NCBI GenBank assembly: GCA_903922075.1
Contig: CAIXSK010000005.1
Span: 1-34,609 of the forward strand
Direction: 5' to 3'
Source: an uncultured beta proteobacterium
Lineage (GTDB): Bacteria > Pseudomonadota > Gammaproteobacteria > Burkholderiales > Rhodocyclaceae
Length of the DNA stretch: 34,609 nucleotides
The first letter of the stretch is position 1; every line of letters starts with the position of its first letter. The translations under genes and the position numbers were made by a program. This document shows, piece after piece, positions 7,653 to 32,310 of this stretch. The notes beneath the pieces were generated by a model, which was not told the DNA's origin, did not search any database, and was given only the letters and a program-made list of their open reading frames with translations.

Positions 7653-7679
7653 ACCGCGACGCTTACGTCGCGGTTTTTT
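7653..7679. terminator. Bidirectional intrinsic terminator
   Basis: Stem ACCGCGACG/CGTCGCGGT (7653-7661, 7666-7674), with A-runs on the left and T-runs on the right. It can end both the cytochrome gene (plus) and the cytochrome b561 operon (minus). Confidence 0.9.
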
Positions 7680-7707
7680 GCATTTTGGAGGGGCTGACCG
7701 TAGCATT
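7672..7707 (-). repeat. 36-bp dispersed motif, copy A (divergent)
   Basis: The minus strand begins AATGCTACGGTC, like the other five copies (12782, 18665, 20870, 26689, 32275). The first 18 positions match the consensus except position 13. The two A-tracts are shifted to positions 22-25 and 29-34. It lies downstream of the cytochrome b561 gene in the same orientation and touches the terminator T-run. Confidence 0.7.
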
Positions 7708-7773
7708 TGACTATGACTTTAGTCAGGCAAACTGCTCAACCACTGCTTCGTTGCGAAACAGCACGCTGAATAA

Positions 7774-8301
7774 TTAAACACCACCCCCGGGAAGCATACG
7801 ACGCAGGGTGCCATCGCCTTTGATAGCATGCTTGACCGCTCCGGCGACGTGCAGAACCACCAACCCCGCTCCTCCCCAGACAAATACCTGATGAGCGAGC
7901 TTGAATACAGCGTTGATGCCCTCATCCGGCCACCCTGCCTTGATGATCTCGAATCCGAAGAACTTGAGCGGATAAGAGCTGAAGGACGACGCAAAATAGG
8001 CCGATAGCGGCGCACAAAGCAGGAAGATATAAAGCAGACGGTGCGTTAATTGAGCAAGCTTGACTTCCCAGCCCTGGCCTAGCAGTGCAGGTGCCGGGGT
8101 GCGGTGGCGCCAGCCAAGGCGAATCACCACCAATAGCAAGGCGACAAGCCCCATCGATTTATGCAGCCCGTAGGCAGCCGTACGCTCACCGCCTTTGGGC
8201 ATGTCGACCATGGTCCAGCCGAGCCAGAGCAACCAGAGGACGATGGCCGCCTGAGCCCAATGCAGAACGATCGCCGGCAAGGAATAACGTTTCACGTTCA
8301 T
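7774..8301 (-). CDS. Cytochrome b561 (membrane diheme)
   Basis: Integral membrane b-type cytochrome of 175 residues with four hydrophobic helices. Candidate heme-ligand His residues appear in IVLHW (14), GLHKSMG (about 47), LTHRLLY, LAHQVF and LHVAGAVKH, the usual pattern of YodB/CybB-type b561. It would link a periplasmic electron carrier with the quinone pool. It is the last gene of the minus-strand run pedF, xoxJ-like, b561, with 156 bp between it and the binding-protein gene. A role in quinoprotein electron transfer is inferred from context. Confidence 0.9.
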   Translation of the reverse strand: MNVKRYSLPAIVLHWAQAAIVLWLLWLGWTMVDMPKGGERTAAYGLHKSMGLVALLLVVIRLGWRHRTPAPALLGQGWEVKLAQLTHRLLYIFLLCAPLSAYFASSFSSYPLKFFGFEIIKAGWPDEGINAVFKLAHQVFVWGGAGLVVLHVAGAVKHAIKGDGTLRRMLPGGGV

Positions 8302-8380
8302 CAGCCTGCAACACCCGTAAGCTGCGGGGCGATCCCGACAAGCGTTGCCGCTGCGTAGCGAGCACCGAAAACCGGGCCCC

Positions 8381-8411
8381 GCCGGAACAACGGGCTAGCC
8401 GCTGTTCCGGC
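8381..8411. other. Strong hairpin between binding-protein and cytochrome b561 genes
   Basis: Perfect 9-bp arms GCCGGAACA and TGTTCCGGC around a 13-nt loop. Without a following T-run on the minus strand it is more likely an mRNA processing or stabilising hairpin than an intrinsic terminator. Confidence 0.4.
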
Positions 8412-8457
8412 AGAGATCGCCGGTTTTTCCATAACCCCAACCGGAGGCAAACTCATT

Positions 8458-9303
8458 TCAGGCGGGGGAATAGGTGATGCCATGCCGCTTGAAGATGGCG
8501 GCGACGGTGCCGTCCTCCTTCAAATGGGCAAGAACCTCGCCAATGGCGTGAGCCAGTTCCATTTCCTCGGCCTTGACCGCCATGCCAACCGGCCAGCTAT
8601 CAACCTTGAGCTCGGCAAATTTCTGATCGTCGAGCACGATTCTGGACTGCCCCTTGAGCGCGGCTTCGAGTTCGGCACGGGGTGCCAAAACTGCGGAGAT
8701 CGATCCGTCGACCAAGGCTTTGGCGGCTTCGGCAATCGTCTTGAAATGCACGACGTTTTCACGCAGGCGGCCGTTCATGGCCGAGAGCAGGAAAGCATCG
8801 GGCAGGGTTGCAATTTCGACCCCTACCTTTTCGCGCGTAAAAACCTCGAGAGCAACGACTGCCGAGCCCGACAGCGGATTCGGGATCCGCTCCGGATTGC
8901 GTGCCAGTGCCAGCGTTTCGCGATGATAGGGTCCGAAGATACGAACCTTGTCATTGGTCTTGGCCAGATGCTGATCGACCGGCACGTGCATCATCACATC
9001 GGCTGGCTGAGTACCCAGGTAATGGCCCTTCCAGACCATGTTACGCAGGTCATCATTCATGTCCTCGTCGGCATTGAAGCCGACGACTTCTGGAACCAGC
9101 CCGAGCTTCTCGGCAATGGCGCGTCCGATATCGGCGTCGATGCCCTTGCCTTCACTCGAATAAGGCAGGAAGTTGTTATAGACCGCAATGCGCAGGCGCC
9201 CGCGCTTGCGGACAGACTCCGAAATCTCTGCGGCGGCCGGCAGCGCGGCTGCCATCGGCAACGCAGCCAGCGCCTTCAACCAGAAACGGCGATTACTCTT
9301 CAT
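8458..9303 (-). CDS. XoxJ/MoxJ-like quinoprotein-associated periplasmic binding protein
   Basis: A 281-residue family-3-type solute-binding fold. The export signal (RRFWLKALAALPMAAALPAAA) ends near residue 23. The body opens with RKRGRLRIAVYNNFLPYS and contains GIDADIGRAIAEKLGL, typical of the quinoprotein-dehydrogenase-associated binding proteins. These are thought to help assemble or activate the dehydrogenase rather than feed an ABC transporter; no permease or ATPase gene is nearby. The ATG at 9303 lies inside the end of pedF (11-bp overlap), which implies translational coupling; an upstream TTG at 9315 is less likely. Confidence 0.85.
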   Translation of the reverse strand: MKSNRRFWLKALAALPMAAALPAAAEISESVRKRGRLRIAVYNNFLPYSSEGKGIDADIGRAIAEKLGLVPEVVGFNADEDMNDDLRNMVWKGHYLGTQPADVMMHVPVDQHLAKTNDKVRIFGPYHRETLALARNPERIPNPLSGSAVVALEVFTREKVGVEIATLPDAFLLSAMNGRLRENVVHFKTIAEAAKALVDGSISAVLAPRAELEAALKGQSRIVLDDQKFAELKVDSWPVGMAVKAEEMELAHAIGEVLAHLKEDGTVAAIFKRHGITYSPA

Positions 9304-9721
9304 GTACGGTTTCAATATAGGAACGGATAGCCCACATGGCTTCCTGGCTCAAAGTATGTTCGAACGGAGGCATGTACACACGGCCATCACGAACCGAACC
9401 CTTGCGGATACGCTGCATGAAGATTTCGTCGCCATCATCGCCCAGCGGCAGATAGCGCAGATCGGGGGCGATACCGCCGGAGATGGCTTCCAGGCCATGG
9501 CAGCGGGCGCAGTTCTGGTTGTAGGCAGAACTGCCGATACGAATCGCAGTCTTATCCTTACGGTAAGGATTGCTCTTCAGAAAATCTGCACCCAGGTTCT
9601 TCAGGCCCGTGGTGTCGACAGCTTGCGGCGTCACATCACCGTGAGCAAAAACCTGCGGAGCGGCCACGCTGATGAAAAGAGCTGCCGCAACAGCACCGAG
9701 GTGTCGGAAGGGATGTTTCAC
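9293..9721 (-). CDS. pedF: Cytochrome c-550 PedF
   Basis: Periplasmic c-type cytochrome of 142 residues, taken as the electron acceptor of PQQ alcohol dehydrogenase. The signal peptide ends at about residue 26 (APQVFAHG). CARCH is at residues 71-75, with downstream GIAPDLRYLP and the axial Met in RVYMPPFEH. The start is GTG at 9721, supported by AAAGGAGA eight bases upstream. It is first in the operon with the XoxJ-like gene and cytochrome b561. A near-perfect sigma-54 promoter lies just upstream, so expression should need the activator encoded divergently at 9983. Confidence 0.9.
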   Translation of the reverse strand: MKHPFRHLGAVAAALFISVAAPQVFAHGDVTPQAVDTTGLKNLGADFLKSNPYRKDKTAIRIGSSAYNQNCARCHGLEAISGGIAPDLRYLPLGDDGDEIFMQRIRKGSVRDGRVYMPPFEHTLSQEAMWAIRSYIETVHEE

Positions 9722-9768
9722 AATGTCTCCTTTGATAGGTAAGGGTTGCTACTAAGCCTGCACTGCAC

Positions 9769-9784
9769 TGCAAGCGTTGTGCCA
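9769..9784 (-). promoter_or_regulatory. Sigma-54 promoter of the pedF operon
   Basis: The minus strand reads TGGCACAACGCTTGCA. This matches TGGCACG-N4-TTGCA at every position except the seventh. The predicted start is near 9758, giving a leader of about 37 nt before the GTG at 9721. The adjacent divergent gene encodes a sigma-54 activator. Confidence 0.9.
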
Positions 9785-9922
9785 GGTAAGCCTGACAGAG
9801 TATCAAAACAATTTCCGGAAAGCCATTTGAGCATAGAGTGAAAAACGCAATAGATCCGCGACCAGTTGACGTAAGTCGTTTTGGCCAAAAAACAGGTGCT
9901 GCTTGCTCCATTGCTTCCAAAA

Positions 9923-9934
9923 AGCACATGTGCT
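9923..9934. promoter_or_regulatory. 12-bp palindrome, candidate upstream activator site
   Basis: AGCACATGTGCT is a perfect palindrome about 140-150 bp upstream of the pedF sigma-54 promoter and just before the activator gene. Position and symmetry fit an enhancer site for the dimeric Fis-type activator. No second copy was confirmed. Confidence 0.35.
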
Positions 9935-9982
9935 ACGTTATGGAACACTAGAACAAACATAATGATTCATTCTGGAGGAGAG

Positions 9983-11968
9983 ATGGGTAGTCTGCAAATT
10001 TTGGCCGATGCTCATGGTCAGCGACTGGAACAGGCCCGACAGCTGTTTTTTGATCAAGGCGCCTTGCCGGAAGGCTTGGTCGATCCCTTGATCATCCGCT
10101 CGTGGGAACGTTGCCGTCGACTTGGTCTGACGGGGACGACCATGATGCCCGAAACGGATGTGCTGAGCGCTCCTTCCTTGAAGACCGAGCAGGAGCGCAG
10201 CCACTTCCTGCTCTCGCAGGGGCGTCCGATCCTGGAACACATCTACGACCAGATCCGCGAATCGGGGAGCATGGTCATTCTGGCCAACGCCAACGGATTG
10301 TTGCTGGAAACAGTCGGCGATCCGGACTTCGTCGATCGCGCCGACCGCGTCGCACTGTCGGCGGGCGCCTCGTGGGACGAAACCCTGCGCGGCACCAATG
10401 CCATCGGCACTGCCTTGTCGGAAGAAGCTCCGGTTGCCGTTCTCGGTGGCGAACACTTCCTCGAATACAACAGCTTCCTGACCTGTTGCGCCAGTCCGAT
10501 CGTCGGGCCGGACGGAAGGCTGATCGGCGTTCTCGACATCTCCGGGGACTACCGTAGCCAGCAACGGCACACGCTTGGACTGGTTCGCCTGTCCGCACTC
10601 ATTATCGAGAAGCGCCTTTTCGAATCGACCCATGCCCGGGAAATTCTTGTCTGCTTCCACCGGCGTGCCGACTACCTCGGCAGCCCGAAGGAAGGCATGG
10701 CTGCCGTTTCCCCGGACGGTCAGGTGCTGGCGATCAACACCGCTGGTCTCGAAATTCTCGGCATCCGGCAAGTCGATGCCGTGCGCCGCGACTTCTCGAT
10801 TGTCTTCGAAAGCACGCTGTCCGCCCTGGTCGATCGCCTGCGCCACACTCCGCTGGGTAGCTGCGAAATCAATGTCAACGGTCGTCCGGTCCATCTCCAG
10901 CTACGCGGACAATTGCCCCCGCTGACGCTGGCCGGCCGGGTTTTTGACGACACGCCAGCGGCACGCCCGCCGGTCCGCCGCGCCGAACCGTCCGGGCATA
11001 GCGGCCTGACCCTGGACACCCTGAATACCGGCGATGCCCGCTTGCAGGCAGCCATCGACCGCGCCCGCCGCATCCTCGGCCGCGACATCCCGATCCTGAT
11101 TCAGGGCGAGTCGGGTGCCGGCAAGGAAATGTTCGCCAAGGCCTTCCATAACAGCGGGCCGCGCCAGGGTTTACCGTTCGTGGCGCTCAACTGCGCGTCG
11201 ATTCCGGAAACCCTGATCGAATCCGAACTGTTCGGCTACCAGGGCGGGGCCTTTACCGGCGCCCGCAAGGAAGGCGCCCCCGGCAAGATCCAGCAGGCCC
11301 ATGGCGGCACGCTGTTCCTCGATGAAATCGGCGACATGCCGCTCAATCTCCAGGCCCGCCTGCTGCGCGTGCTGCAGGAACGCTGTGTAACGCCGCTGGG
11401 CAGCACGCGGGCGATCCAGGTCGATATTTCCCTGGTCTGTGCCACCCACCGCAAGCTGCGCGAGGAAGTCGCCCGCGGCACCTTCCGCGAAGACCTTTAC
11501 TATCGTCTCAATGGCCTGAGCGTAACGCTCCCGCCCTTGCGCGACCGTACCGACATCCGCGCCATGGTCTCCAAGCTGGCCGCCTCCGAAGCTGCCTCCC
11601 GGGGTGAAGCCGTCAAATTCTCCGAAGGCGCCCTGCAAGCCATCGAAAACTACGGCTGGCCGGGCAACATCCGCCAGCTGTTCAATGTCATCCGGGTTGC
11701 CATCGCCCTGCTTGACGACAATGAAACGACGATTACGGAAACCCATTTGCCCGAAGAGTTGTTCGAGGTGATGCCGGTGGCCGCGGGCAATGCGCCGGCC
11801 TTCGACCCGTGGGCCGCAGCACCGCTGGAAGGCGCCAGCAGCCTTGACGAGATCAGCCGTCAGGCCGCCTTGCGCACCCTCGAAGCAGCGGGCGGAAATA
11901 TCTCGGCGGCCGCCCGCCAACTCGGCATCAGCCGCAATACGCTATACCGCAAGCTCGGCCGAATGTAA
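9983..11968 (+). CDS. Sigma-54-dependent activator, AcoR/Fis family
   Basis: A 661-residue enhancer-binding protein. The N-terminal half is a GAF-type sensor (about 75-205: ANANGLLLETVGD, GTNAIGTAL, CCASPIVGPDGRLIGVLDISG) followed by a PAS-like part. The AAA+ domain has Walker A GESGAGKE from residue 375, the sigma-54 contact loop GAFTGA at 422-427 and Walker B LFLDEIGDM. A Fis-type helix-turn-helix closes the protein (ISAAARQLGISRNTLYRKL). The ATG at 9983 is chosen for the GGAGGAG five bases upstream; the frame also runs 34 codons further upstream. It is divergent from pedF and probably senses alcohols, aldehydes or a related metabolite and switches on both sigma-54 promoters here (inference). 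Confidence 0.93.
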   Translation: MGSLQILADAHGQRLEQARQLFFDQGALPEGLVDPLIIRSWERCRRLGLTGTTMMPETDVLSAPSLKTEQERSHFLLSQGRPILEHIYDQIRESGSMVILANANGLLLETVGDPDFVDRADRVALSAGASWDETLRGTNAIGTALSEEAPVAVLGGEHFLEYNSFLTCCASPIVGPDGRLIGVLDISGDYRSQQRHTLGLVRLSALIIEKRLFESTHAREILVCFHRRADYLGSPKEGMAAVSPDGQVLAINTAGLEILGIRQVDAVRRDFSIVFESTLSALVDRLRHTPLGSCEINVNGRPVHLQLRGQLPPLTLAGRVFDDTPAARPPVRRAEPSGHSGLTLDTLNTGDARLQAAIDRARRILGRDIPILIQGESGAGKEMFAKAFHNSGPRQGLPFVALNCASIPETLIESELFGYQGGAFTGARKEGAPGKIQQAHGGTLFLDEIGDMPLNLQARLLRVLQERCVTPLGSTRAIQVDISLVCATHRKLREEVARGTFREDLYYRLNGLSVTLPPLRDRTDIRAMVSKLAASEAASRGEAVKFSEGALQAIENYGWPGNIRQLFNVIRVAIALLDDNETTITETHLPEELFEVMPVAAGNAPAFDPWAAAPLEGASSLDEISRQAALRTLEAAGGNISAAARQLGISRNTLYRKLGRM

Positions 11969-11974
11969 GTTGCC

Positions 11975-12001
11975 CTACCATCACGCCATCCGGGATGGTA
12001 G
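11975..12001. terminator. Hairpin between convergent genes
   Basis: Arms CTACCATC and GATGGTAG sit between the stops of the activator and sirB2-like genes. No T-run follows, so it is only a weak terminator candidate. Confidence 0.35.
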
Positions 12002-12013
12002 AACCCGTCTGCC

Positions 12014-12394
12014 TCAGAACAGGATCGTCGGGTTGCGGCTGAGCGCCACCCCGACGATGTAGGCATAGGCCAGCAAGGCCAGACAGAAATAGCGCAGACG
12101 GATCGTCCGGGTCCGGGCGCGTTTCAGCGCCATCATACCGAGCAGTATGTAGGCAAGCAGGCCAAACAGCTTGGCCGTCAGCCAGCCGTTCACAAACGGG
12201 TACTGGCCGCTCATCCAGGCCATGCTCAGTGCGCTGCCGAGCAGCAGGGTGTCGACAAGGTGGGGCAGTATCCGCGTCAATCGATGCTGGCGCAGCGGCG
12301 ATTCGACCAGCATCCACGCCCCGCGCAGGCAAAACCCGAGGCCGCTGAGGACGACGCAGGTGACGTGCAGGTGCTTGAGAGCGAGGTAACTCAA
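12014..12394 (-). CDS. SirB2 family membrane protein
   Basis: Small integral membrane protein (126 residues, about four hydrophobic helices) of unknown molecular function. The start is TTG at 12394: it gives the family-typical N-terminus MSYLALKHLHV, and TTGA overlaps the stop of the upstream gene. A longer frame to 12577 runs through that gene and is rejected. It is last in an operon with the NnrS/CcoN-like protein, DUF2249 and hemerythrin, which suggests a role in O2/NO-related respiration (inference). Confidence 0.8.
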   Translation of the reverse strand: MSYLALKHLHVTCVVLSGLGFCLRGAWMLVESPLRQHRLTRILPHLVDTLLLGSALSMAWMSGQYPFVNGWLTAKLFGLLAYILLGMMALKRARTRTIRLRYFCLALLAYAYIVGVALSRNPTILF

Positions 12395-13689
12395 AGCACC
12401 GCCAGCTTGTTGAGGATATCGGCCCGATACCGCCCGTAGCGACGGAAGGCGCACCACAGGTTCAACCATAACCAGCCGTTGGCGGCCGCAAACGCCAATC
12501 CGGCCGGCACCGCCAGCCAGCGCGGGAACAGCACGGCGGCGAGCAGCAGGCCGAGTGCGCCGGCATAGGCCAGCCACTGCCGGTTGGCCTCGGCATCAGC
12601 CAGAATCTTGTTCATGGCGGGCGCCGGCAGCTTGGCCTGTCCGCAACTCTGCAGATGCAGCCAGGCCAGGAAGGGAACGATCTTGTAAATCATGCCGGCA
12701 ATGAACGGCAAATAACCGCCGGCCACCAGTGATATGCCGAAAAACAGCGTCCAGCCGTCGATCTCGGCGGCGGCGGGCCACAATGCTACGGTCGAGAGCA
12801 AAAAAAGGGCAAAAATACTAAACGACAAACCGAGCTGCCAGTAGCGATAGGTCGCGTCCGCCCGCGCCCGACGACGCCCGCCCTGCAGGCGCAAGGTCAG
12901 GCCGGCAAAGGCGATGCCGGCGACGGCGGCGACCAGCTGGCTGAGGCGGACGAGCCAGGGCCAATCAACCAGCAGGGCGATACTCCACAGCAGCAGCATG
13001 ACCAGCATGGCGACTGGAAACCACCAACTGGCACGGGACGGATAGCCCGGCGTCAGCTGGAACATCGGGACGACGACGTAGGCGATGGCGGCTAGCAACA
13101 CACCGGCCCAACCGCCCAGGCCCCAGCCAGCATGCAGGTCGGCCAGCGCCGGCAGCGGTAGGGCCCAGCCATAGGCCAGCGCCAGCGCCATGACAATGCC
13201 GATGCCGACGACAGTGGCCAGACCGAGGAGCGCCAGCTTGAGACCGCGAATGGTCGGGCTGGTCGACGGTACGCCGATCAGCGCGCGCACCGTTGCCACC
13301 AGAAAAAAGACAACCGTCAGCCCCAACAGCAAGGCGGCGCCAGTGAGCAGCGGCGGGTTGCCCAGGTAAAGCCCGGAAGCCAGCAGCAGCGCCCCGAGCG
13401 AAAGACCGGGGTGAACGATTCTGGCGACCCTGAGCGGATGCTGTAAATTGGCCCCGGTAACGACCGGGAGGATCTGGATCAGCGCCCCCAGCATGGCCTG
13501 CATCATGAAGCCGACGGTCAGCAGATGCGTTGCCGCCAGCGCCCCCGGCGTCCACCGCGAAGCGAAGATATCCGCCCCCTCGAAGGCGACCAGCAAGCCA
13601 GCCAGAACGGCAAACAGCGGCGCGGTCAGGAAAAAACGCAGCGGGGCCGCGAAGGGCGGTGCGTTTTCGAAGGCCATCAGTGCTTGCAT
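12391..13689 (-). CDS. Polytopic membrane protein, NnrS/CcoN-like
   Basis: 432 residues and about twelve hydrophobic helices. His residues inside or at the ends of helices (AATHLLTVGFMMQAMLGALI, ARIVHPGLSLG, DLHAGWGLGGW) recall heme-copper-related NnrS-type proteins that go with nitric oxide response and microaerobic respiration. Exact function is unknown. Spacing is 10 bp after the DUF2249 gene and there is a 4-bp overlap with sirB2, so one operon is likely. A 36-bp dispersed motif (12782-12817) lies antisense inside the gene and encodes part of a hydrophobic helix, IFALFLLSTVAL. The start could also be the ATG at 13677. Confidence 0.75.
   Translation of the reverse strand: MQALMAFENAPPFAAPLRFFLTAPLFAVLAGLLVAFEGADIFASRWTPGALAATHLLTVGFMMQAMLGALIQILPVVTGANLQHPLRVARIVHPGLSLGALLLASGLYLGNPPLLTGAALLLGLTVVFFLVATVRALIGVPSTSPTIRGLKLALLGLATVVGIGIVMALALAYGWALPLPALADLHAGWGLGGWAGVLLAAIAYVVVPMFQLTPGYPSRASWWFPVAMLVMLLLWSIALLVDWPWLVRLSQLVAAVAGIAFAGLTLRLQGGRRRARADATYRYWQLGLSFSIFALFLLSTVALWPAAAEIDGWTLFFGISLVAGGYLPFIAGMIYKIVPFLAWLHLQSCGQAKLPAPAMNKILADAEANRQWLAYAGALGLLLAAVLFPRWLAVPAGLAFAAANGWLWLNLWCAFRRYGRYRADILNKLAVL
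12782..12817 (+). repeat. 36-bp dispersed motif, copy F (antisense inside a membrane-protein gene)
   Basis: Starts AATGCTACGGTCG; A-tracts fall at motif positions 19-25 and 30-34, with no indel relative to copies B, C, D and E. Positions 14-18 differ (AGAGC). It runs opposite to the host gene, where it encodes hydrophobic residues. Confidence 0.85.
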
Positions 13690-13699
13690 GGCCTGGCGT

Positions 13700-14439: not shown

Positions 14440-14450
14440 ATACCGGGCAA

Positions 14451-17723: not shown

Positions 17724-19136
17724 TTACAGCGAGACAGAGTCTCCAGGCGCAGGCCGATAGACATCTGGCCAGCCCAGTTGTTCTTCGATGGCGCGTTTGA
17801 AATTGGCCGAAGCGCCGGCCTCGCCATGGACGACGAAAGTCTGGCCGGGCGGCCGATGAAAACCGCGCAGCCAGTTGAGCAGCGCCGCCTGATCAGCATG
17901 CGCCGACAGCCCGCCGACGGTATAAATGCGCGCCCGGACCGGCACCGTCTGGCCGAAGATGCGCACCAGCCGCGCCCCGTCGACCAGGCGCCGGCCCAGC
18001 GTCCCGGCCGCCTGGAAACCGGCGATCAGCACGCTGCATTCGCTGCGCGGCAGGTTCTCGCGCAGGTGGTACTTGATCCGCCCGGCCTCGCACATGCCGC
18101 TGGCCGACAGGATCACCGCCCCGTGGCGGATTTCGTTGAGCGACTTGGAGCGTTCGACATCGGCGACGAACTCGATGTGCATGCGGTCGGTGTGCGCGCG
18201 CTGCCAGGCGATCAACTCGCGGGTTTCCGGGTCGAGCAGTTCGGGGTTGTCCAGCGTGATGCGGGTCGCGGCGTTGGCCATCGGCGAATCGACATAGACC
18301 TTTAGCGACGACACCCGCTTGCGGCGGACCAGATCGGCCAGCAGGTAGATGATCTCCTGCGTCCGCCCGACGGCGAAGGCGGGAATGATCAGATTGCCGC
18401 CGGCCACCCGCGTCCGCTCGATGGCGCCGACGATCTCCTCCTCCGTCTCCGGCAGCGAACGATGCAGACGGTCGCCGTAGGTCGATTCGATCAGCAGCAC
18501 GTCGGCTTCGGCCGGCGGCGGCTCAGGATCGCGGAGCACCGGTCGGTCGGGCATGCCGAGGTCACCGGAAAAAACCAGCCGGCGCGGCCTGCCCTCGCCG
18601 CCGACGACCACTTCCAGCGAGGCCGAACCGAGGATATGGCCGGCATCGCGAAAAGTCACGCTGACGTTTTTGGCCATTTTTTCGGGCCGACCGTAGCATA
18701 TGGGCTGCAGCAGCTTCAACGAGGCCAGCGCCTGCGCCACGGTATACAGCGGCGGCTGGATGCCCCGCTCGCCCTGGCCGCGCCGACGGCGATGACGCAA
18801 CTGCCACTCCGATTCCTTCTCCTGAATATGCGCGCTGTCCGGCAGCAGCACTTCAAGCAGGGCGATGGTCGCCGGCGTGGCATAGATCGGCCCGCGAAAA
18901 CCGAGCGTCGCCAGACGGGGCAGCAGGCCCGAGTGATCGATGTGGGCGTGGGTCAACAGCACGAAGTCGAGCTGGCGCACATCGAAGCCGACATTCAGCG
19001 CCCGCTGGTTCTTCTGGCGGGCTTCCGGACCGCCCTGAAACATGCCGCAATCGACCATAAAACGGACGTCGCCCGCTTCAACGAGGGTGCAGGAACCGGT
19101 CACTTCCCCGGCTGCTCCGAGAAACCCGAGACGCAT
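17724..19136 (-). CDS. Metallo-beta-lactamase / beta-CASP family RNase-like protein
   Basis: 470 residues. The metal site includes HAHIDHSG and GHILGSAS; a beta-CASP core follows (FSGDLGM, ESTYGDR, PAFAVGRTQE). The end is RMMBL-like (GGLSAHADQ, VVHGE). It is related to CPSF-73/YsnF-type RNases; the substrate is unknown. The ATG at 19136 is supported by GGGAGGAA. In-frame copy B of the 36-bp dispersed motif encodes CYGRPEKMAKN within a variable linker just before the FRDAGHILGSAS motif. Confidence 0.88.
   Translation of the reverse strand: MRLGFLGAAGEVTGSCTLVEAGDVRFMVDCGMFQGGPEARQKNQRALNVGFDVRQLDFVLLTHAHIDHSGLLPRLATLGFRGPIYATPATIALLEVLLPDSAHIQEKESEWQLRHRRRRGQGERGIQPPLYTVAQALASLKLLQPICYGRPEKMAKNVSVTFRDAGHILGSASLEVVVGGEGRPRRLVFSGDLGMPDRPVLRDPEPPPAEADVLLIESTYGDRLHRSLPETEEEIVGAIERTRVAGGNLIIPAFAVGRTQEIIYLLADLVRRKRVSSLKVYVDSPMANAATRITLDNPELLDPETRELIAWQRAHTDRMHIEFVADVERSKSLNEIRHGAVILSASGMCEAGRIKYHLRENLPRSECSVLIAGFQAAGTLGRRLVDGARLVRIFGQTVPVRARIYTVGGLSAHADQAALLNWLRGFHRPPGQTFVVHGEAGASANFKRAIEEQLGWPDVYRPAPGDSVSL
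18665..18700 (-). repeat. 36-bp dispersed motif, copy B (in frame inside the beta-CASP gene)
   Basis: The minus strand starts TATGCTACGGTCGGCC; A-tracts are at motif positions 19-24 and 30-34. It is read in the gene's own frame as CYGRPEKMAKN, the same phase as copy C. Confidence 0.9.
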
Positions 19137-19219
19137 GTTTTCATTCCTCCCGACTTGGCGTAGCATGAACCTCAACAAGGCGGAATGCAACGCCACACAA
19201 CCATTTCAGGAGGCTACGC

Positions 19220-20456: not shown

Positions 20457-21020
20457 TCAACTATTTATGACCTCTTTCGACGCCCGGCCGGCGAGCCGCT
20501 CCCAGGTGGGCAAGCGGGGCTGACGACAGAGTTCGACGAGCAGGCCGACGGCCGCCTCAAGGCGCTCAGAGGCCTCGCCGGACAGCGCCTCACCCAGTTC
20601 GAAACGCTCGCCGCGCACGCAGAGCACGAAGGCCGGCGGCGGTTCGCTGCCTTCGGTCTGCCGGTAGACCTGCAGCACGGCCTGCGGAGACAGCGCGTGG
20701 CTGGTATGGGCAACGGCGGTCGACGGGAATATCCGCTCGAACACGTAGGGTGCCGGAGTATCGACGCCGGCGTCGATGAACAACGCCAGTTGCCGGCCAT
20801 GCAGATCGAGGGCGTGTTCGATCTGTAGCTGGAAATCCTCGATCAGCTCGACGCCGCCGGCCAGAATTTCATTTTTGAGCATTTTTTCGAGCCGACCGTA
20901 GCATTCCGGCCCGATGGCGTCGTCGCCGCGGCTGGGGTTGCCGACGGCGAAGATGACGACCGGCTTGGCCTGTCCTGAGCCCTGTCGAAGGGCCTGTCCT
21001 GAGCCTTGTCGAAGGATCAT
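20457..21020 (-). CDS. hoxW: Hydrogenase maturation protease (HoxW/HyaD family)
   Basis: A 187-residue endopeptidase that trims the C-terminal extension of the hydrogenase large subunit after nickel insertion. Family motifs are GNPSRGDDAIGP, ELIEDFQLQIEHALDL and LFIDAGVD. The ATG overlaps the hoxH stop (ATGA). Two oddities are visible. The first 17 residues consist of a doubled RQGSGQA encoded by a tandem 24-bp repeat. Residues shortly after GPE come from copy C of the 36-bp motif (CYGRLEKMLKN). Both insertions keep the frame and leave the catalytic motifs intact. Confidence 0.9.
   Translation of the reverse strand: MILRQGSGQALRQGSGQAKPVVIFAVGNPSRGDDAIGPECYGRLEKMLKNEILAGGVELIEDFQLQIEHALDLHGRQLALFIDAGVDTPAPYVFERIFPSTAVAHTSHALSPQAVLQVYRQTEGSEPPPAFVLCVRGERFELGEALSGEASERLEAAVGLLVELCRQPRLPTWERLAGRASKEVINS
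20870..20905 (-). repeat. 36-bp dispersed motif, copy C (in frame inside the maturation protease gene)
   Basis: The minus strand starts AATGCTACGGTCGG; A-tracts are at motif positions 19-24 and 30-34. It is translated as CYGRLEKMLKN in the same phase as copy B in an unrelated gene. Confidence 0.9.
20967..21014 (-). repeat. Tandem 24-bp repeat at the 5' end of the protease gene
   Basis: Two adjacent units (20967-20990 and 20991-21014), 23 of 24 bases identical. Each contains CCTGTCCTGAGC and TGTCGAAG, and each adds eight in-frame codons (LRQGSGQA) directly behind the start codon. The unit resembles a short dispersed repeat seen in many bacterial genomes (recalled, not searched). Confidence 0.85.
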
Positions 21021-25680: not shown

Positions 25681-25741
25681 GACAAGCTCCGGTGAAGTGC
25701 TTATGACAATGTACAGACTAGCACCGCCAGATGACGATTTC

Positions 25742-25755: not shown

Positions 25756-25907
25756 GATAAGGAGCCCTGGCGTTCAACAATTCGTAATCCGGCTGTGCAA
25801 GAATGCTGCTGCAGTACAGCAACCAGCACAGCCCCGCCAAATCTGCAAATCAAGAATGGATTGATGCGGCGCAACAGCCCCAAAACCGTATTGGAAGGAT
25901 GAACAAC

Positions 25908-26681: not shown

Positions 26682-26688
26682 GGCCGCA

Positions 26689-26724
26689 AATGCTACGGTC
26701 GGCCCCAAAAAAAGGCCAAAATCG
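26689..26724 (+). repeat. 36-bp dispersed motif, copy D (8 bp after fabI)
   Basis: Starts AATGCTACGGTCGGCC; A-tracts at motif positions 19-25 and 30-33. It is intergenic and in the same direction as the preceding gene. A GGCGGGC/GCCCGCC hairpin follows at 26731-26749 without a T-run on this strand. Confidence 0.9.
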
Positions 26725-26771
26725 AAAAACGGCGGGCGGCCTGCCCGCCGAAACTGATCGTGGAGCTCAAC

Positions 26772-27347
26772 ATGGCTGAACCCGACGGACTGCTTCCCGA
26801 CCCCGTGCCGGATCACCCGCTGCTGCGCGGCCGCCGGGAAATCGGCCGGGGCGAAAGCACCATCGTCCTCGAAGCCGACCCCGTCGACGGCCAGGAGCGC
26901 GTCTACAAGGTGCTCTCCTCGCCGACCGACTACGCCTACTACACCGCCGACGACCGGCCGACCGGCCGCCACTTTCCGGTCGTTTTCGCCGATCACGGCA
27001 CGGCCGGCCGCTCCAGTCGCGGCTATCCCTTCCACATCGTCGAGGTCGAGCGGCTCTATCCGCTGCCCGGCAGCGGCGAGACGGCCGAGGTGGCGACCAA
27101 GCTGTCCACCTCCTATTTCGACGCCTGCCTGATGTGGCGCAACCTGGCCCAGGACATGGGGCGCATCGCCCTGCACCACCTGGCGGTGACGCCGATGGGG
27201 TGGAGCGACGCGGTGCAGCAATCGCTCCAGGCGCTGGAAACCTTTTCCGACGACTACGGCGCCCTGCCCGACCTGATCAAGGCCGACAACCTGATGATGC
27301 GCAAGGACGGCACCCTGGTTTTCTCCGACCCGGTTTTCATGGAATGA
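26772..27347 (+). CDS. Small kinase-like protein of unknown substrate
   Basis: 191 residues. A glycine-rich segment (IGRGESTIVLEAD, residues 24-36), a Lys ten residues further on (VYKVL, Lys46), and a C-terminal PDLIKADNLMM followed by LVFSDPVF mirror the P-loop, Lys, catalytic Asp-x-x-x-x-Asn and metal Asp of protein-kinase-like folds. It is shorter than a normal kinase domain. The ATG at 26772 has GGAG six bases upstream. Next comes a phosphatase-like gene, 4 bp on. No family name is certain. Confidence 0.6.
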   Translation: MAEPDGLLPDPVPDHPLLRGRREIGRGESTIVLEADPVDGQERVYKVLSSPTDYAYYTADDRPTGRHFPVVFADHGTAGRSSRGYPFHIVEVERLYPLPGSGETAEVATKLSTSYFDACLMWRNLAQDMGRIALHHLAVTPMGWSDAVQQSLQALETFSDDYGALPDLIKADNLMMRKDGTLVFSDPVFME

Positions 27348-27351
27348 CCCG

Positions 27352-27834
27352 ATGACCATCAGCCAAGTCCAATACACCTCGCGCAAGCTGGCCGAACAAC
27401 TGCGCGGCTCGCCCTACATGGCGGTCATCTCGATCACCGATCCGACGACGCCGGAAGCCAAGCTCGACCCGCTGTTCCGCCACGTGCTGCGCCTCGCCTT
27501 CTTTGACGCGGTGCCGGCCGACGAGTACCAGCCGAGCATTCCCGGCCTGTTCGACCGCGACATGGCGGCGCAGATCAGCGCCTTCATTGCCGAGTTGCAC
27601 GCCGCCCCCTTCGAAATCACGCTGATGGTCCATTGCGAGTACGGCGTCAGCCGTTCGGCCGCCGTTGCGCTGTTTGCCGAAGCCTTGACCGGCGCTCCGC
27701 TGGACGCCCGCGAATTCACCTACGAAGCCAACCAGTGGGTGATCGACCAGTTGCAGCAGCGCCATCCCGGCCTGGACGTCGATGTGCCGTCGCCACTGGT
27801 CAGCCGCGAACGCCGTCGCGCCGCCCGGGCATGA
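27352..27834 (+). CDS. Dual-specificity/tyrosine phosphatase-like protein
   Basis: 160 residues. The signature VHCEYGVSRSAA contains the HC-x5-R-S catalytic loop (Cys95, Arg101, Ser102), and upstream FFDAVPADEY (Asp52, Asp57) can supply the general acid. It starts 4 bp after the kinase-like gene. The pair may phosphorylate and dephosphorylate a protein of the neighbouring carbon-metabolism enzymes (inference). Confidence 0.75.
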   Translation: MTISQVQYTSRKLAEQLRGSPYMAVISITDPTTPEAKLDPLFRHVLRLAFFDAVPADEYQPSIPGLFDRDMAAQISAFIAELHAAPFEITLMVHCEYGVSRSAAVALFAEALTGAPLDAREFTYEANQWVIDQLQQRHPGLDVDVPSPLVSRERRRAARA

Positions 27835-27916
27835 ACCGGCTCGCCACCCCCATATTGTTTGCTGCACCGCAGCAATCTATACTAGCCTTTGGCTTGATAC
27901 ACCGGAGCAAGCAGTC

Positions 27917-29335
27917 ATGAACCACCCTTCCGAACAACGCTACCTGGTCAACAAGACCTATGACGAAATCAAGGTCGGCGACTCGGCCAGCCTGACCCGC
28001 ACCCTGATGCCCGAGGATGTGAAACTGTTCGCCATCCTGACCGGCGACGTCAATCCCGCCGTCGTCGATCCGAGCTACTCGGAAAGCGGCCTGTTCCGCG
28101 AAGTCATCGCCCACGGCATGTGGAGCGGCTCGCTGATCTCGACCGTGCTCGGCACGCAGTTCCCCGGCCCGGGCACCATCCTGGTCGACCAGAGCCTGCA
28201 CTTCGCCCGCCCGGTCACCATCGGCGACACCATCACCATCACCGTCACCGCCAAGCAGAAATTCGATCACAACCAGCACGTCATCTTCGACTGCCTGTGC
28301 ACCAACCAGGAAGGCCTGCCGGTCGTGCGCGGCACGGCCGAAGTGCTGGCCCCGACCGAAAAAGTCTCCCGGCTGCAGGAAGTGCATATGCCGGAGATCC
28401 GCATCGACGACAAGCACGAGCGCTACGTCCACCTGCTCGAGCGCGTCCGCGGGCTGGAACCCATCCCCACCGCCGTCGCCCATCCGTGCGACGAAGAATC
28501 GCTGAAAGGCCCGGTCATGGCCTTCCAGGCCGGCATCATCGAGCCCATCCTGGTCGGCCCGGAGAACAAGATCCGCGCCGTTGCCGAGGAATTCGGCATC
28601 GACCTCTCCGGCATCCGCATCGTCCATGCCGCGCACAGCCACGACTCGGCCGCGCTGGCCGTCTCACTGGTCCGCACCGGCGACGCCGAGGCGCTGATGA
28701 AGGGCAGCCTGCACACCGACGAACTGATGGGCGAAGTCGTCGCCCGCGCCAACGGCCTGCGCACCAGCCGCCGGATCAGCCACGTCTTCCTGATGGACGT
28801 GCCGACCTACCACCGGCCGCTCTTGATCACCGACGCGGCGATCAACATCGCCCCGACGCTGGAAGACAAGGTCGACATCATCCAGAACGCCATCGACCTC
28901 GCCCACATCATCGGCATCCCGGAACCCAAGGTGGCGATCCTCTCGGCGGTCGAGACGGTCAACCCGAAAATCCAGTCCACGCTCGACGCCGCCGCCCTGT
29001 GCAAGATGGCCGACCGCGGCCAGATCAAGGGCGGTATCCTCGACGGCCCGCTCGCCTTCGACAACGCCGTTTCCATCGTCGCCGCCAAGACCAAGGGCAT
29101 CAAGTCGGCGGTCGCCGGCCACGCTGAAATCCTCGTCGTCCCCGATCTCGAATCCGGCAACATGGTGGCCAAGCAGCTCGAATACCTGGCCAACGCGCTG
29201 ACTGCCGGCATCGTGCTCGGCACCAAGGTGCCCATCGTGCTGACCAGCCGCGCCGACAGCGCCGAAACCCGTACCGCGTCCTGCGTCATCGCCGCGCTGG
29301 TCGCCCACCACAACCGCAAGACTGGAACCACCTGA
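27917..29335 (+). CDS. Bifunctional enoyl-CoA hydratase (MaoC) / phosphate acetyltransferase
   Basis: 472 residues. An N-terminal MaoC hot-dog domain (about 10-150; EDVKLFAILTGDVNPAVVD and HGMWSGSLIST give the catalytic Asp and His) is fused to a phosphate acetyl/butyryltransferase domain (about 160-472; LLITDAAINIAP, ILDGPLAFDNAVS). It would interconvert acetyl-CoA and acetyl phosphate; the MaoC domain can hydrate enoyl-CoA, possibly giving (R)-3-hydroxyacyl-CoA for PHA. The ATG at 27917 has GGAG upstream. The ackA start follows after 1 bp. Confidence 0.9.
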   Translation: MNHPSEQRYLVNKTYDEIKVGDSASLTRTLMPEDVKLFAILTGDVNPAVVDPSYSESGLFREVIAHGMWSGSLISTVLGTQFPGPGTILVDQSLHFARPVTIGDTITITVTAKQKFDHNQHVIFDCLCTNQEGLPVVRGTAEVLAPTEKVSRLQEVHMPEIRIDDKHERYVHLLERVRGLEPIPTAVAHPCDEESLKGPVMAFQAGIIEPILVGPENKIRAVAEEFGIDLSGIRIVHAAHSHDSAALAVSLVRTGDAEALMKGSLHTDELMGEVVARANGLRTSRRISHVFLMDVPTYHRPLLITDAAINIAPTLEDKVDIIQNAIDLAHIIGIPEPKVAILSAVETVNPKIQSTLDAAALCKMADRGQIKGGILDGPLAFDNAVSIVAAKTKGIKSAVAGHAEILVVPDLESGNMVAKQLEYLANALTAGIVLGTKVPIVLTSRADSAETRTASCVIAALVAHHNRKTGTT

Positions 29336-29336
29336 T

Positions 29337-30518
29337 ATGCAGCAAGGCATCCTGACGATCAACGCCGGATCGTCCTCGATCAAGTTCGCCCTTTTTCCGC
29401 TCGCCCACCCGATCTCCCCGGAGGCCGAAGTCTCCGGGCAGATCGACGGCATCGGCACCAGCGCCACCAAAATGGTCGCCAAGGACCGCGCCGGCACCAA
29501 GATCGCCGACCAGGCCATCGCTGGCCAGGCAGTCAGCCACGACCAGGCCTTCGACGCCCTGCTCCAGTGGTTCCAGGCTACGCAAACCGGCTGGCAGATC
29601 GTTGCCGTCGGCCATCGCGTCGTTCATGGCGGTGATCTTTACTCACAGCCGACCATCGTCGACGCCCAGGTCGTCGAGCACCTGACCAGCTTCATCCCGC
29701 TCGCCCCGCTGCACGAGCCGCACAACGTCGCCGGCATCCGCGCCCTGCAGAAGCTGCTGCCCGACGTGCCGCAGATCGCCTGCTTCGACACCGCCTTCCA
29801 TCGCAGCCAGTCGGACGTCGCCCAGGCCTTCGCCCTGCCCCGCGCGTTGACCGCCGAAGGCATCAAGCGCTACGGCTTCCACGGCCTGTCCTACGAATTC
29901 ATCGCCCGCGCCCTGCCGCAGCACTCCAGCCGCGCCACCGGCCGCGTCGTCGTCGCCCATCTCGGCAACGGTGCCAGCATGGCGGCCATGGTCAATCGCA
30001 AATGCGTCGCCACCACCCTCGGCTTCTCGACCATCGACGGCCTGATGATGGGCACCCGCTGCGGTAACCTCGACCCCGGCGTCGTGCTGCACCTGATGGA
30101 AACCAAGGGCCTGTCGGTCAAGGACATGACCCGCATCCTCTACAAGGAATCCGGCCTGCTCGGCGTGTCCGGCATCAGCCAGGACATGCGCACCCTGCTC
30201 GCCAGCGACAAGCCGGAAGCCGAGGAAGCGGTCAACCTGTTCTGCTACCGCATCGTCCGCGAACTCGGTTCGCTGGTCGCCGCCGCCGGCGGCCTTGATG
30301 CGCTGGTATTCACCGGCGGCATCGGCGAACACGCCGCCGAGGTCCGCCGCCGCGTCTGCGAACAGTCCGAATGGCTCGGCATCCGCCTCGACCCGGAAGC
30401 CAACGCCCGCCACGACATCGTGATCAGCGCCGGCGACAGCAGCGTCGACGTGCTGGTCATTCCGACCAATGAGGAATGGATGATGGCGCACCACGCGCAG
30501 ACGCTGCTGGCGCTCTGA
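29337..30518 (+). CDS. ackA: Acetate kinase
   Basis: 393 residues. Makes ATP and acetate from acetyl phosphate. Signatures are LTINAGSSSIKFALF (N-terminal), RYGFHGLSYEF, VVAHLGNGASM and FTGGIGEHAAEVRRRVC. It is coupled to the MaoC-Pta fusion (stop-T-ATG). The last 26 codons plus the terminator (30439-30578) recur at 32330-32363 and 33052-33156 as flanks of the accessory insertion. Confidence 0.96.
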   Translation: MQQGILTINAGSSSIKFALFPLAHPISPEAEVSGQIDGIGTSATKMVAKDRAGTKIADQAIAGQAVSHDQAFDALLQWFQATQTGWQIVAVGHRVVHGGDLYSQPTIVDAQVVEHLTSFIPLAPLHEPHNVAGIRALQKLLPDVPQIACFDTAFHRSQSDVAQAFALPRALTAEGIKRYGFHGLSYEFIARALPQHSSRATGRVVVAHLGNGASMAAMVNRKCVATTLGFSTIDGLMMGTRCGNLDPGVVLHLMETKGLSVKDMTRILYKESGLLGVSGISQDMRTLLASDKPEAEEAVNLFCYRIVRELGSLVAAAGGLDALVFTGGIGEHAAEVRRRVCEQSEWLGIRLDPEANARHDIVISAGDSSVDVLVIPTNEEWMMAHHAQTLLAL

Positions 30519-30578
30519 AACAAAAATATTTTTTCTGCCCCGCCCCGGTCCCCGAAAGGTGGCGGGGCTTTGTTTTTT
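30439..30578 (+). repeat. ackA 3' tail, copy 1 (left boundary repeat)
   Basis: Positions 30474-30578 match 33052-33156 at 102 of 105 bases (the first 75 exactly); 30439-30472 match 32330-32363 at 31 of 34. It covers the end of the coding region and the terminator. Confidence 0.9.
30537..30578 (+). terminator. Rho-independent terminator of ackA
   Basis: Stem GCCCCGCC (30537-30544) with GGCGGGGC (30561-30568), followed by TTTGTTTTTT. Confidence 0.9.
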
Positions 30579-30699
30579 AAAGCGGACCAGGCTCGGTTTT
30601 GTGCAGAAATTTATCAACCCGGGCTGGAAGAAAGCAATTTGCAAGCTTGAGTCAATAAAGTCCCCTATTACCAACAAACCGTAGGGGAAGGGCTGCAAT

Positions 30700-30744
30700 A
30701 TGGATCGTCGTCAATTCAATCTCGGACTCCTCCAAATTAATTGA
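30700..30744 (+). pseudogene. Possible 5' remnant of a Tat-exported gene
   Basis: GGGGAAGGG precedes an ATG opening a 14-codon frame that begins MDRRQFNLG, resembling a twin-arginine leader. It stops inside the inverted repeat at 30735-30757. It may be a gene start cut by an insertion; the short length leaves chance open. The rest of 30579-30755 shows nothing else recognisable. Confidence 0.3.
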
Positions 30745-30757
30745 GCCTGGCCCCTTT
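30735..30757 (-). repeat. Left arm of an inverted repeat flanking a captured fragment
   Basis: The minus strand reads AAAGGGGCCAGGCTCAATT. It matches the plus-strand sequence at 31498-31519 at 18 of the first 19 bases. A partial relative, CCAGGCTCGG, lies at about 30585. Confidence 0.75.
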
Positions 30758-31415
30758 AGCTCGCGTTCAGGTACGGGGTGTAGTCGATGAACCAGCCATG
30801 GCCGGAGGCGATGGTGTCGAGGGTAATTTGGGCATTGGTGCCGGTGCCAATGGTTTGGGCGAGAGTGGCATTATCGAGATCGGCAACGCGAACGCCAGCA
30901 GACAATTCCCCTGGCCATAGATCGCTTCCATTGCCCTGACTTGACTTGCGAAGTTTGATAACGATAGGCCGGCTGGGGCAGGTATCCACGTGACTACTGA
31001 CGATCTCCAGCACGTGAATATCGATCGATACCTTAAAGCGTAAGCCTCGATATTCCACCATGAAAACCGCCTTGTCCTTGCCCAAGAATCCCGGCTTGGG
31101 GTCATAGGCATAGAACATACTGCCATCATTGCCCACTATGTACTCTAGTGACCCCTGCCGCGGCCCTTGCAGCAGGGTCGGTTTGAATTCGGCAATATCC
31201 AATACATTATTCTGCTGCAAACGCTGTATATAGTTTCTGACCTCGCCGGCAGGATGAACACCGCGCAAGGCGTTATCCGGCTTGAGATCATGCTCGGTCT
31301 CGGTACAGCTGCGAATGAGATAATCCACCGGCTGCTTGCCCACGGCATCCGTTGCGGCCGCCACGATCATCGGCGTTTCCTGGGGGGACACATAAGGCAC
31401 GTCTAGGAAAATCAT
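30756..31415 (-). CDS. Unknown protein, probably truncated at its C-terminus
   Basis: 219 residues with no signal peptide. The ATG at 31415 follows GGAGGAG. The end contains ITLDTIASGHGWFIDYTPYLN. From memory, similar text (GHGWFIDxTPYLNEEF) continues into a metallopeptidase-like HExxH region in large secreted proteins. Here the frame ends within two codons, and its stop is supplied by the left inverted-repeat arm. It is therefore read as the 5' part of a longer gene, cut off by the element. Function is not assigned. Confidence 0.55.
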   Translation of the reverse strand: MIFLDVPYVSPQETPMIVAAATDAVGKQPVDYLIRSCTETEHDLKPDNALRGVHPAGEVRNYIQRLQQNNVLDIAEFKPTLLQGPRQGSLEYIVGNDGSMFYAYDPKPGFLGKDKAVFMVEYRGLRFKVSIDIHVLEIVSSHVDTCPSRPIVIKLRKSSQGNGSDLWPGELSAGVRVADLDNATLAQTIGTGTNAQITLDTIASGHGWFIDYTPYLNAS

Positions 31416-31497
31416 CAGTTCGTCTCCTCCATGAGGAATTGTGCTTCATTGAGCAAGGCGGCGGCGTGCTTCGACAGGTTGCCGAATCGCAAAATAA
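31415..31497 (-). pseudogene. 3' remnant of the gene upstream of the unknown protein
   Basis: A minus-strand frame ending LLNEAQFLMEETN has its stop overlapping the next start (TGATG) and carries that gene's GGAGGAG ribosome site, the usual look of an operon junction. Its upstream part is lost at the right inverted-repeat arm (31498-31519). Confidence 0.35.
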
Positions 31498-31519
31498 AAG
31501 GGGCTAGGCTCAATTTTAG
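31498..31519 (+). repeat. Right arm of the inverted repeat
   Basis: AAAGGGGCTAGGCTCAATT, inverted relative to 30735-30757. The 740 bp between the arms hold the truncated unknown gene and a gene remnant. Confidence 0.75.
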
Positions 31520-31589
31520 CTCCGACCTGCCGCTGACGCCCCCATTTTGGCGCTTGCCTGGCAAACCCGCAGCCGTGATATCATCAGTC

Positions 31590-31889
31590 ATGGCTGATGT
31601 GAAAAGCATTGACGAATCCCACAAGATTTCCGACAAGCGCGGAAATGGGAAACTGCGCCGGGAAGTCTGGATTGATGAGGCCACCGGGAAGGTCACACGG
31701 TATAACCTCGCCTACGTCAATCACAACATTTTCCCCGGCGACAATGGGCGCGTAGTTGGTTACGACAACGCCCACGACGGCCACCATCGCCACTATTTCG
31801 GTGTCGTGGAACCTATCGAGTTTGTCAGCTTCGAAGATACGGAAGCGCGTTTTGAACACGACTGGATTGCATTGAAGGACAGCAAATGA
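31590..31889 (+). CDS. TumE-family toxin (DUF6516-like)
   Basis: 99 residues. The family core VTRYNLAYVNHNI, DNGRVVGYDNAHDG and HHRHYFGVVEPIEF is intact. It is the presumed toxin of a two-gene module; the target is unknown. The ATG at 31590 is used; a longer frame to 31431 runs through the inverted repeat and is rejected. The stop overlaps the next start (ATGA). A TATCAT hexamer at 31579-31584 would give a nearly leaderless transcript. Confidence 0.75.
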   Translation: MADVKSIDESHKISDKRGNGKLRREVWIDEATGKVTRYNLAYVNHNIFPGDNGRVVGYDNAHDGHHRHYFGVVEPIEFVSFEDTEARFEHDWIALKDSK

Positions 31890-32260
31890 CCAAGCTCATT
31901 ATCAAGACCGGAACGGAAGCCGACTTCTTCAAGCGTGGTCGCCAGTTGGCTAGGGCGGCAGACCGTGGAGAACAGCTACCCGATGAGCGCACGGTTTGCT
32001 TTGAAGACCCCGCAGAACTCATGAAGCTGATCACCGTGGCTCGCCTGGCACTATTCCGTGCGGTAAAGGAAATGCCCGGTTCGATTACCCAGATTTCGGA
32101 ACGCCTGCACCGGGACCGCAGTGCCGTGAAGCGCGATATCGATGAACTGGAACGCGCCGGCCTGCTGACGATTGCCGAGAAGGTGCTACCCGGGCATGGG
32201 CGCATGAAAGAAGTTCGGGCGACGGCCAATCGTTTCAGCCTTCAGGCCGAGGTGGCTTAG
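31886..32260 (+). CDS. Helix-turn-helix antitoxin (TumA-like)
   Basis: 124 residues. A winged helix-turn-helix (ITQISERLHRDRSAVKRDIDE) of the HVO_A0114-like DNA-binding class occurs as the partner of TumE-type toxins. It is coupled to the toxin gene by a 4-bp overlap, and probably neutralises the toxin and represses the module. Confidence 0.75.
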   Translation: MTKLIIKTGTEADFFKRGRQLARAADRGEQLPDERTVCFEDPAELMKLITVARLALFRAVKEMPGSITQISERLHRDRSAVKRDIDELERAGLLTIAEKVLPGHGRMKEVRATANRFSLQAEVA

Positions 32261-32274
32261 CCGCGACCGGGCAG

Positions 32275-32310
32275 AATGCTACGGTCGGCCGGAAAAAATA
32301 GGCAAAAATC
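32275..32310 (+). repeat. 36-bp dispersed motif, copy E (15 bp after the antitoxin gene)
   Basis: Starts AATGCTACGGTCGGCC; A-tracts at motif positions 19-24 and 30-34. It is inside the accessory insertion. Confidence 0.9.

Follow-up and report, generated by a model that had tools for sequence, protein, structure and literature searches.

The DNA uptake sequence (DUS) of the Neisseriaceae is read by the minor pilin ComP, and the uptake signal sequence (USS) of the Pasteurellaceae occurs in two types, Hin-type AAGTGCGGT and Apl-type ACAAGCGGT. According to the portion of Redfield et al. (2006, PMC1626085) drawn on here, the USS has a strong consensus, prefers non-coding DNA and originates by substitution; two A/T segments 12 bp apart lie on its 3′ side, there is about one copy per kb with closely spaced inverted pairs, and the two dialect types share ANNNGCGGT. 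That perfect copies outnumber singly mismatched ones is described in the same portion as an oddity of both the USS and the DUS. DUS, too, are often found in inverted pairs (parts of PMC12616744 and PMC1626085), and integrative elements have been located from the way DUS dialects are distributed (PMC7371117, in part). In the relevant part of Helsem et al. (2025, PMC12616744), the Neisseriaceae and the Pasteurellaceae are said to be the only families in which such sequences are known. Here, we describe a motif of about 40 letters that is present in six copies in a 34,609-nucleotide contig stretch of an uncultured betaproteobacterium (the window, meaning that whole stretch) and in hundreds of near-identical copies per chromosome. 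We put at about 0.8 the probability that, as its sequence suggests, it is a DNA uptake sequence by which naturally competent bacteria favor DNA of their own kind, much as the USS does.

All six copies that a first-pass annotation had placed in the window lie where it put them and on the strands it gave (Table 1), and the two tracts that follow the core do start 11 bp apart in the copy profile. All six carry the core ATGCTACGGTC unchanged, and one-mismatch versions do not occur in the window at all; the 13-mer ATGCTACGGTCGG, with two mismatches or fewer allowed, gives six matches against 0.83 expected, a number that none of 100 shuffles reached. Other particulars of that annotation needed slight amendment. 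The tail of the core, given as GG at positions 13-14 with a single exception, is indeed GG in general but has two exceptions (AG in the copy at 7672, GA in that at 12782). The A6 tract assigned to positions 19-24 is shifted in the 7672 copy (TCCAAA), and among 36 unique copies of the window's own genome this tract consists of A alone in 17, of T alone in 5 and of both A and T in 6, with G or C present in the remaining 8. Finally, the six copies are real but the motif is longer than the 36 bp allotted to it, running on to a third A-rich stretch near 37-40. The profile combines 30 unique own-genome copies with 133 found in other genomes, a set biased by a retrieval pattern that demanded GG and A6. 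In it, the almost invariant core AATGCTACGGTC occupies positions 1-12 (2-12 having been fixed by the search) and is followed by a GGCCC-type stretch (13-18), a W6 tract (19-24, W being A or T), GGCC (26-29), A4 (30-33, within a W tract of 30-34), TC, and a weaker A-rich third tract (37-40).

The window's own genome, G000 (3.27 Mb in 469 contigs, 96% complete, 5.4% contamination), holds 385 exact copies of the 11-mer ATGCTACGGTC, 196 forward and 189 reverse, or about one per 8.5 kb; the reversed control was found twice on the first strand and never on the second. Two sister genomes, G029 (Betaproteobacteria bacterium AG28) and G100 (Azonexus sp. Go_SlAct_bin_248), hold 328 and 468 exact cores, with control counts of 0 in both. 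The expectation of more copies genome-wide was thus borne out, and the contrary prospect raised with it, that there might be no further copies or only identical local duplications, is contradicted by this spread and by how little information lies outside the motif profile. The motif is also very sharp: the tally over 272 kb of G000 was 27 perfect 12-mer cores to 3 singly mismatched ones, whereas 40 shuffled 12-mers gave means of 0.03 perfect and 1 singly mismatched copy in the same sequence.

The GGCC...GGCC arms present in some copies would suit a transcription terminator or other RNA element, as would the copy at 7672, whose final A-tract merges by eye into an adjoining terminator-like hairpin. 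However, pairing was seen in 88 of 144 cells over the 36 own copies against 84.2 in permutations (p = 0.18), copies lie in both orientations within predicted genes, and Rfam gave no match in the window. The RNA hairpin was rejected on these grounds, its arms showing no covariation beyond chance, and we find an RNA element of any kind scarcely credible. Recognition at the level of DNA, which the first-pass annotation had favored, fits the absence of pairing covariation.

Strand and spacing were assessed over 117 of the 150 places listed, on five contigs of G100 and G029. The two strands carried 61 and 56 copies, with 53 switches over 112 neighbor pairs. For the finished genome G043, 11 stretches gave 35 copies running with the local GC skew and 24 against it (p = 0.19). 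A motif tied to recombination or replication, of the Chi or KOPS type, would account for hundreds of copies genome-wide, but polarity of this kind is not clear and the strands are mixed within single contigs; moreover, the motif is far longer and more structured than Chi. We regard such a role as highly improbable. The strand bias that the first-pass annotation had proposed looking for was not clear in this sample of G043. In regard to spacing, the 112 pooled gaps were more even than random (Kolmogorov-Smirnov p = 0.0017), and 3.6% of them were under 0.2 of the mean against 18% expected. Together with the phasing of the A-tracts and the conservation of positions across species, this evenness speaks for a chromosome-organisation or nucleoid-protein site, at which an intracellular protein would read the core and the phased tracts and, at regularly spaced points, bend the chromosome or bundle it. 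However, the evenness is clear on only two of the five contigs (G100 C1, p = 0.0003, and C4, p = 0.003), borderline on G100 C2 (p = 0.051) and absent from G029 C2 (p = 0.16) and C3 (p = 0.95), and patchy presence inside one genus would be odd for such a role. The matS, parS and KOPS families are, in addition, fewer, shorter or polar. As a rule, sites bound by proteins inside the cell are less strict in their consensus, to go by part of the account in PMC1626085. On balance, we consider an organising role unlikely. Coding location had also been singled out for checking: predicted genes span 83% of the sample and hold 16 of 28 own copies against 23.2 expected, and the 12 outside them amount to an enrichment in non-coding DNA, although the figure is a rough one from a crude gene caller, some of whose calls are shadow frames.

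The ancestry of individual sites could be followed in orthologous stretches of four relatives, which aligned with the window over 32.0 kb (G029), 23.0 kb (G012), 14.0 kb (G043) and 12.6 kb (G002). The sites at 12782, 18665, 20870 and 26689 are occupied wherever they could be aligned, with degradation only at 18665 in G029: 12782 in all four relatives, each with its local spelling, 20870 in G029, G012 and G043, and 26689 in G029 and G012. A scan of these segments for CGGTC with both tracts returned 15 places, 12 of which fall on occupied window sites (three in G029, and nine in G002, G012 and G043 together, where on-site places in local spelling make up 9 of 11). The three places elsewhere comprise one in G029 and two in G043; two are without the rest of the motif, and the third, in G043 opposite window position ~14073, has the partial match AATGACGCGGTCGAC and may be private to that genome. 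Conservation is incomplete: the sole counterpart of the 7672 copy in G029 is degraded, and neither G029 nor G012 has, in its orthologous stretch, the segment carrying the copy at 32275. Nevertheless, the sharing of sites under local spellings implies that most sites predate the dialects and that the spelling at separate sites shifted together.

The in-gene copy at 18665 could be compared more widely, since the metallo-beta-lactamase (MBL) protein encoded there has a match in 53 of 75 genomes. Thirty loci were taken, four were dropped because the anchor peptide was missing, and the 26 aligned orthologues show no gap at the site. In G043, G012 and G002 the same codons spell a second dialect, D2, as CGGTCAACCGG-A6-..-GCC-.AAAA; G029 has a degraded copy, G030 and G032 have a CGGTCAA core without the tracts, and the others have little or nothing. 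A small mobile repeat (REP- or MITE-like) that copies itself around the genome, an alternative raised by the first-pass annotation, would produce many near-identical copies within and between genes, as are found here, but it is hard to square with the ungapped alignment at 18665, with relatives that carry their own dialect at the same sites, or with the lack of RNA pairing covariation. Insertion-shaped gaps were not seen at orthologous empty sites; the mobile repeat is therefore rejected for the window's sites that were compared, and we give it next to no credence in general. The alignments indicate that the copies at the compared sites arose via substitution, not insertion.

Enriched k-mers in samples of 20 to 226 kb, drawn from 13 members of the genus, revealed sister motifs. 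They took the form of TGCTACGGTCAACCGGAAAAAA in G052, TGCCACGGTCAACCGG in G002, (T/C)ACGGTCAACC in G056, and TGCTGCGGTC(A/G)AC in G003, G014, G030, G032, G043 and G058; no sister motif was enriched in G022 or G045, and none was top-listed in the 25-kb sample of G008. D2 reads roughly TTGCYRCGGTCAACCGG-A6-n-GGCC-AAAATTGAAAT. A register test then set CGGTC at positions 8-12, with tracts at 19-24 and 30-33, against two control cores in 18 genomes. Ten of these (G000, G002, G003, G012, G029, G043, G052, G056, G058 and G374) reached at least three times both controls in the same register; under this looser definition, G043 has up to 59 copies in 183 kb against 4 and 3 for the controls. The excess was weaker in G014, G030 and G032 and nil in G024, G016, G022 and G045, and G008 had too little sequence. 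At the level of sequence, it is established that a dialect-bearing motif built like the USS is present in a large part of one genus.

Some of the same samples held other enriched words. A palindromic variant, GCGGTCGACCGC, is enriched in G030, where, as in G032, the tracts are weak, as if the dialect had taken another form. Two words bear no relation to the motif: a repeat in G014, CCTGTTTTTGGTCC, whose 12-mers recur 9-10 times in 100 kb, a strong enrichment, and TTGAAACCTCAGTT in G056 (5-6 copies of its parts in 81 kb).

The motif appears to be a property of this genus, which, we infer, belongs to the Azonexus/Dechloromonas neighborhood of the Rhodocyclales. Among the matches listed in named genomes for the window's own dialect, D1 (82 stretches), the motif is massed in two metagenome-assembled genomes (MAGs), Go_SlAct_bin_248 and AG28, each of which is ~89% identical to G000 over aligned stretches of 27 and 48 kb, respectively; three other records have single matches. 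Whole-genome counts are identical for AG28 and G029 and for CTSoil_120 and G005, which places AG28 and CTSoil_120 in the window's genus. The pattern TGCNNCGGTCRNC reaches at least three times its control count in 27 of 60 genus members, G000 included, whereas among 40 other-family genomes only one with more than a handful of matches reaches that ratio (G080, 43 versus 12). Similarly, among 295 family genomes over 62 genera, TGCNRCGGTCRAC is rich in this genus only: 14 of 17 listed relatives have 45-550 matches, the remaining three have 4, 6 and 28, and the maximum in a genome of any other genus is 17. G000 itself has 23 such matches because its dialect is mostly without the final AC. The full D1 motif has no match in IMG/VR, where a D2 16-mer has 29 single matches, about chance level by a rough estimate of the size of the collection; phage records gave one partial match of 25 bases (E = 0.3), and plasmid records gave none. 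A single D1 copy was also met on a 7-kb contig of a MAG labeled Propionibacteriaceae UBA6238. That MAG is near background for the degenerate pattern (51 versus 30), and the contig may be contamination, although it gave no alignment to the own-genome stretches compared.

Set beside the USS, the motif has a similar build and distribution: a short invariant core that precedes two 3′ A/T-rich segments spaced by roughly one helical turn, numerous copies on either strand with an excess, counted in G000, of perfect over singly mismatched ones, an origin by substitution at the window's sites, a preference for non-coding DNA, and dialects. The W tracts at 19-24 and 30-34 in D1 keep the same register in D2 and are weak in G030 and G032. 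Several dialects of the genus contain GCGGTC (TGCTGCGGTCAAC), as does the Apl-type 10-mer, and this sharing is suggestive, a random 12-mer having a chance of ~0.3% of holding a given hexamer on either strand; the shared hexamer and the tract layout may reflect a receptor related to that of the Pasteurellaceae. Unlike the USS, however, the motif is found in a different bacterial class and has a 12-bp core that is not ANNNGCGGT: the D1 core has ACGGT, the window dialect continuing as ACGGTC, and the GCGGT forms of D2 and D3 (TGCTGCGGTC) have T rather than A four bases upstream. Its W tracts start 11 bp apart, the first of them 7 bp past GGT; GGCC is conserved between them, and a third A-rich stretch follows. 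Its density is about tenfold lower, and inverted pairs are almost lacking. The USS-like layout noted in the first-pass annotation has thus held for its copy excess, consensus, tracts, origin, location and dialects, and by one criterion for a motif-free island described below, but not for copy density or inverted pairs. The motif is not filed as a USS because its core, its density and its dearth of inverted pairs depart from that system.

With the DUS, the motif shares the class Betaproteobacteria, the character of a genome-wide self-marking motif and the presence of dialects in related species, and, in a parallel to the use of DUS dialects for finding integrative elements, one island here is without the motif (by one of three criteria). 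It differs from the DUS, a 10-12-mer, in lacking both the CTG inner core and any evident likeness of sequence, and the DUS has no flanking A/T segments.

If the motif is an uptake sequence, the invariant core AATGCTACGGTC would be recognized at the cell surface by a protein of the type IV pilus uptake machinery, most likely a minor pilin, and bending or opening of the duplex at the uptake pore would be made possible by the phased A/T tracts with their spacing of one turn. DNA bearing the motif would be preferentially taken up and recombined into its homologous place, so that mutations which create or restore copies would spread and damaging ones would be replaced. The outcome would be the hundreds of sharp copies kept on both strands, within and between genes; were the taste of the receptor to shift, the sites would drift jointly into a new dialect. 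Three points here are inferred: the identity of the trans-acting reader as a DNA uptake receptor, the action of the tracts, and uptake itself. Competence genes, which the first-pass annotation had suggested looking for, are present in G000, namely, a full-length ComEC (TIGR00361, 351 bits against a cut-off of 190) and two motors of the PilT/PilU family of ATPases (TIGR01420). ComEC was matched in 33 of 36 genus members searched and therefore does not discriminate motif-rich from motif-poor genomes. PilA-like genes and minor pilin clusters, named by eye, are present in G029, G032, G043 and G052.

Several observations weigh against an uptake sequence. Copy density is roughly one tenth of that of both the USS and the DUS, and inverted pairs number 0 among 38 copies in G000 and 2 in 217 over eight genomes. 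Cores and tracts do not always go together: the core-rich G030 and G032 have 13 and 12 tract-bearing places against 7 and 8 for the control cores, and G024, also core rich (298 versus 70), has no tract excess (3 versus 4 and 1). A single-gene tree, built from 30 MBL protein sequences, shows no significant clustering of motif richness (8 changes against 10.3 in shuffles, with 52 to 65 of 500 shuffles equally low), a patchy pattern for which genomes were labeled by a TGC... pattern that undercounts G012, with its TC... variant. Many relatives poor in the motif have a full-length comEC frame, and the frame is broken in G029 and G002, two genomes rich in the motif. In G000, the N_methyl search found 10 genes but no recognisable major type IVa pilin, and GspH/FimT found none, perhaps because the assembly is fragmented. 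Pilin inventories made by eye do not separate rich from poor genomes, and a receptor search limited to the N_methyl and GspH families, with no ComN query, produced no motif-tracking protein and no nameable receptor. One of the window's copies sits in an accessory toxin-antitoxin segment (Table 1). Lastly, the comEC gene of G002 contains a 33.7-kb low-GC island (51.5% versus 64.6%) that has 0 copies against 4.8 expected by a CGGTC(A/G)AC-plus-tract criterion (p = 0.008), which speaks for an uptake sequence, but its depletion is not significant with CGGTC alone (3 versus 5.9, p = 0.16) or with ACGGTCAAC (0 versus 2.4, p = 0.09).

The breaks in comEC have features of their own. In G029, G002 and G018, the last of which has a comEC that is cut short, they lie near a conserved ISGLHVTMVA stretch. 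Judged by eye, the first gene of the G002 island looks serine recombinase-like, and G029 has a similar gene next to its comEC. Repeated targeting of comEC by mobile elements is a possibility in this genus.

The surroundings of the six copies are given in Table 1. The 432-aa frame that holds copy 2 has no Pfam or NCBIfam match. The segment with copy 6 may have come in by motif-assisted transformation.

Table 1. Copies of the motif in the window, with the genes and the segment that carry them
Feature	Position	Strand	Context or content
Copy 1	7672..7707	-	Flanked by genes for a cytochrome c-like protein (7288-7614, +) and cytochrome b561 (7774-8301, -)
Copy 2	12782..12817	+	Within a 432-aa reading frame (12391-13689, -)
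Copy 3	18665..18700	-	In frame within the MBL/beta-CASP gene
MBL/beta-CASP gene	17724..19196	-	MBL fold, Beta-Casp and RMMBL domains
Copy 4	20870..20905	-	In frame within the hydrogenase maturation protease gene
Hydrogenase maturation protease gene	20457..21020	-	TIGR00072
Copy 5	26689..26724	+	7 bp downstream of the stop codon of an enoyl-acyl carrier protein reductase gene
Copy 6	32275..32310	+	Exact copy, between genes of the toxin-antitoxin-like segment
Toxin-antitoxin-like segment (2.46 kb)	30578..33038		TumE-like toxin, helix-turn-helix and BrnT toxin genes

Among the published papers listed in our literature search, none dealt with uptake sequences in this group. It seems fairly probable to us that the motif represents a third lineage of self-DNA recognition in transformation, with at least three USS-built dialects in one genus, concerted changes across sites, and a dialect boundary that would be a visible barrier to gene exchange. 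If so, this third case would be found in environmental bacteria, with many close species that have or lack the motif and with dialects at identical sites. The joint change of receptor specificity and hundreds of sites, genetic isolation by dialect and the role of the A/T tracts would then become testable, and betaproteobacteria of sludge and similar habitats would sort DNA by kin.

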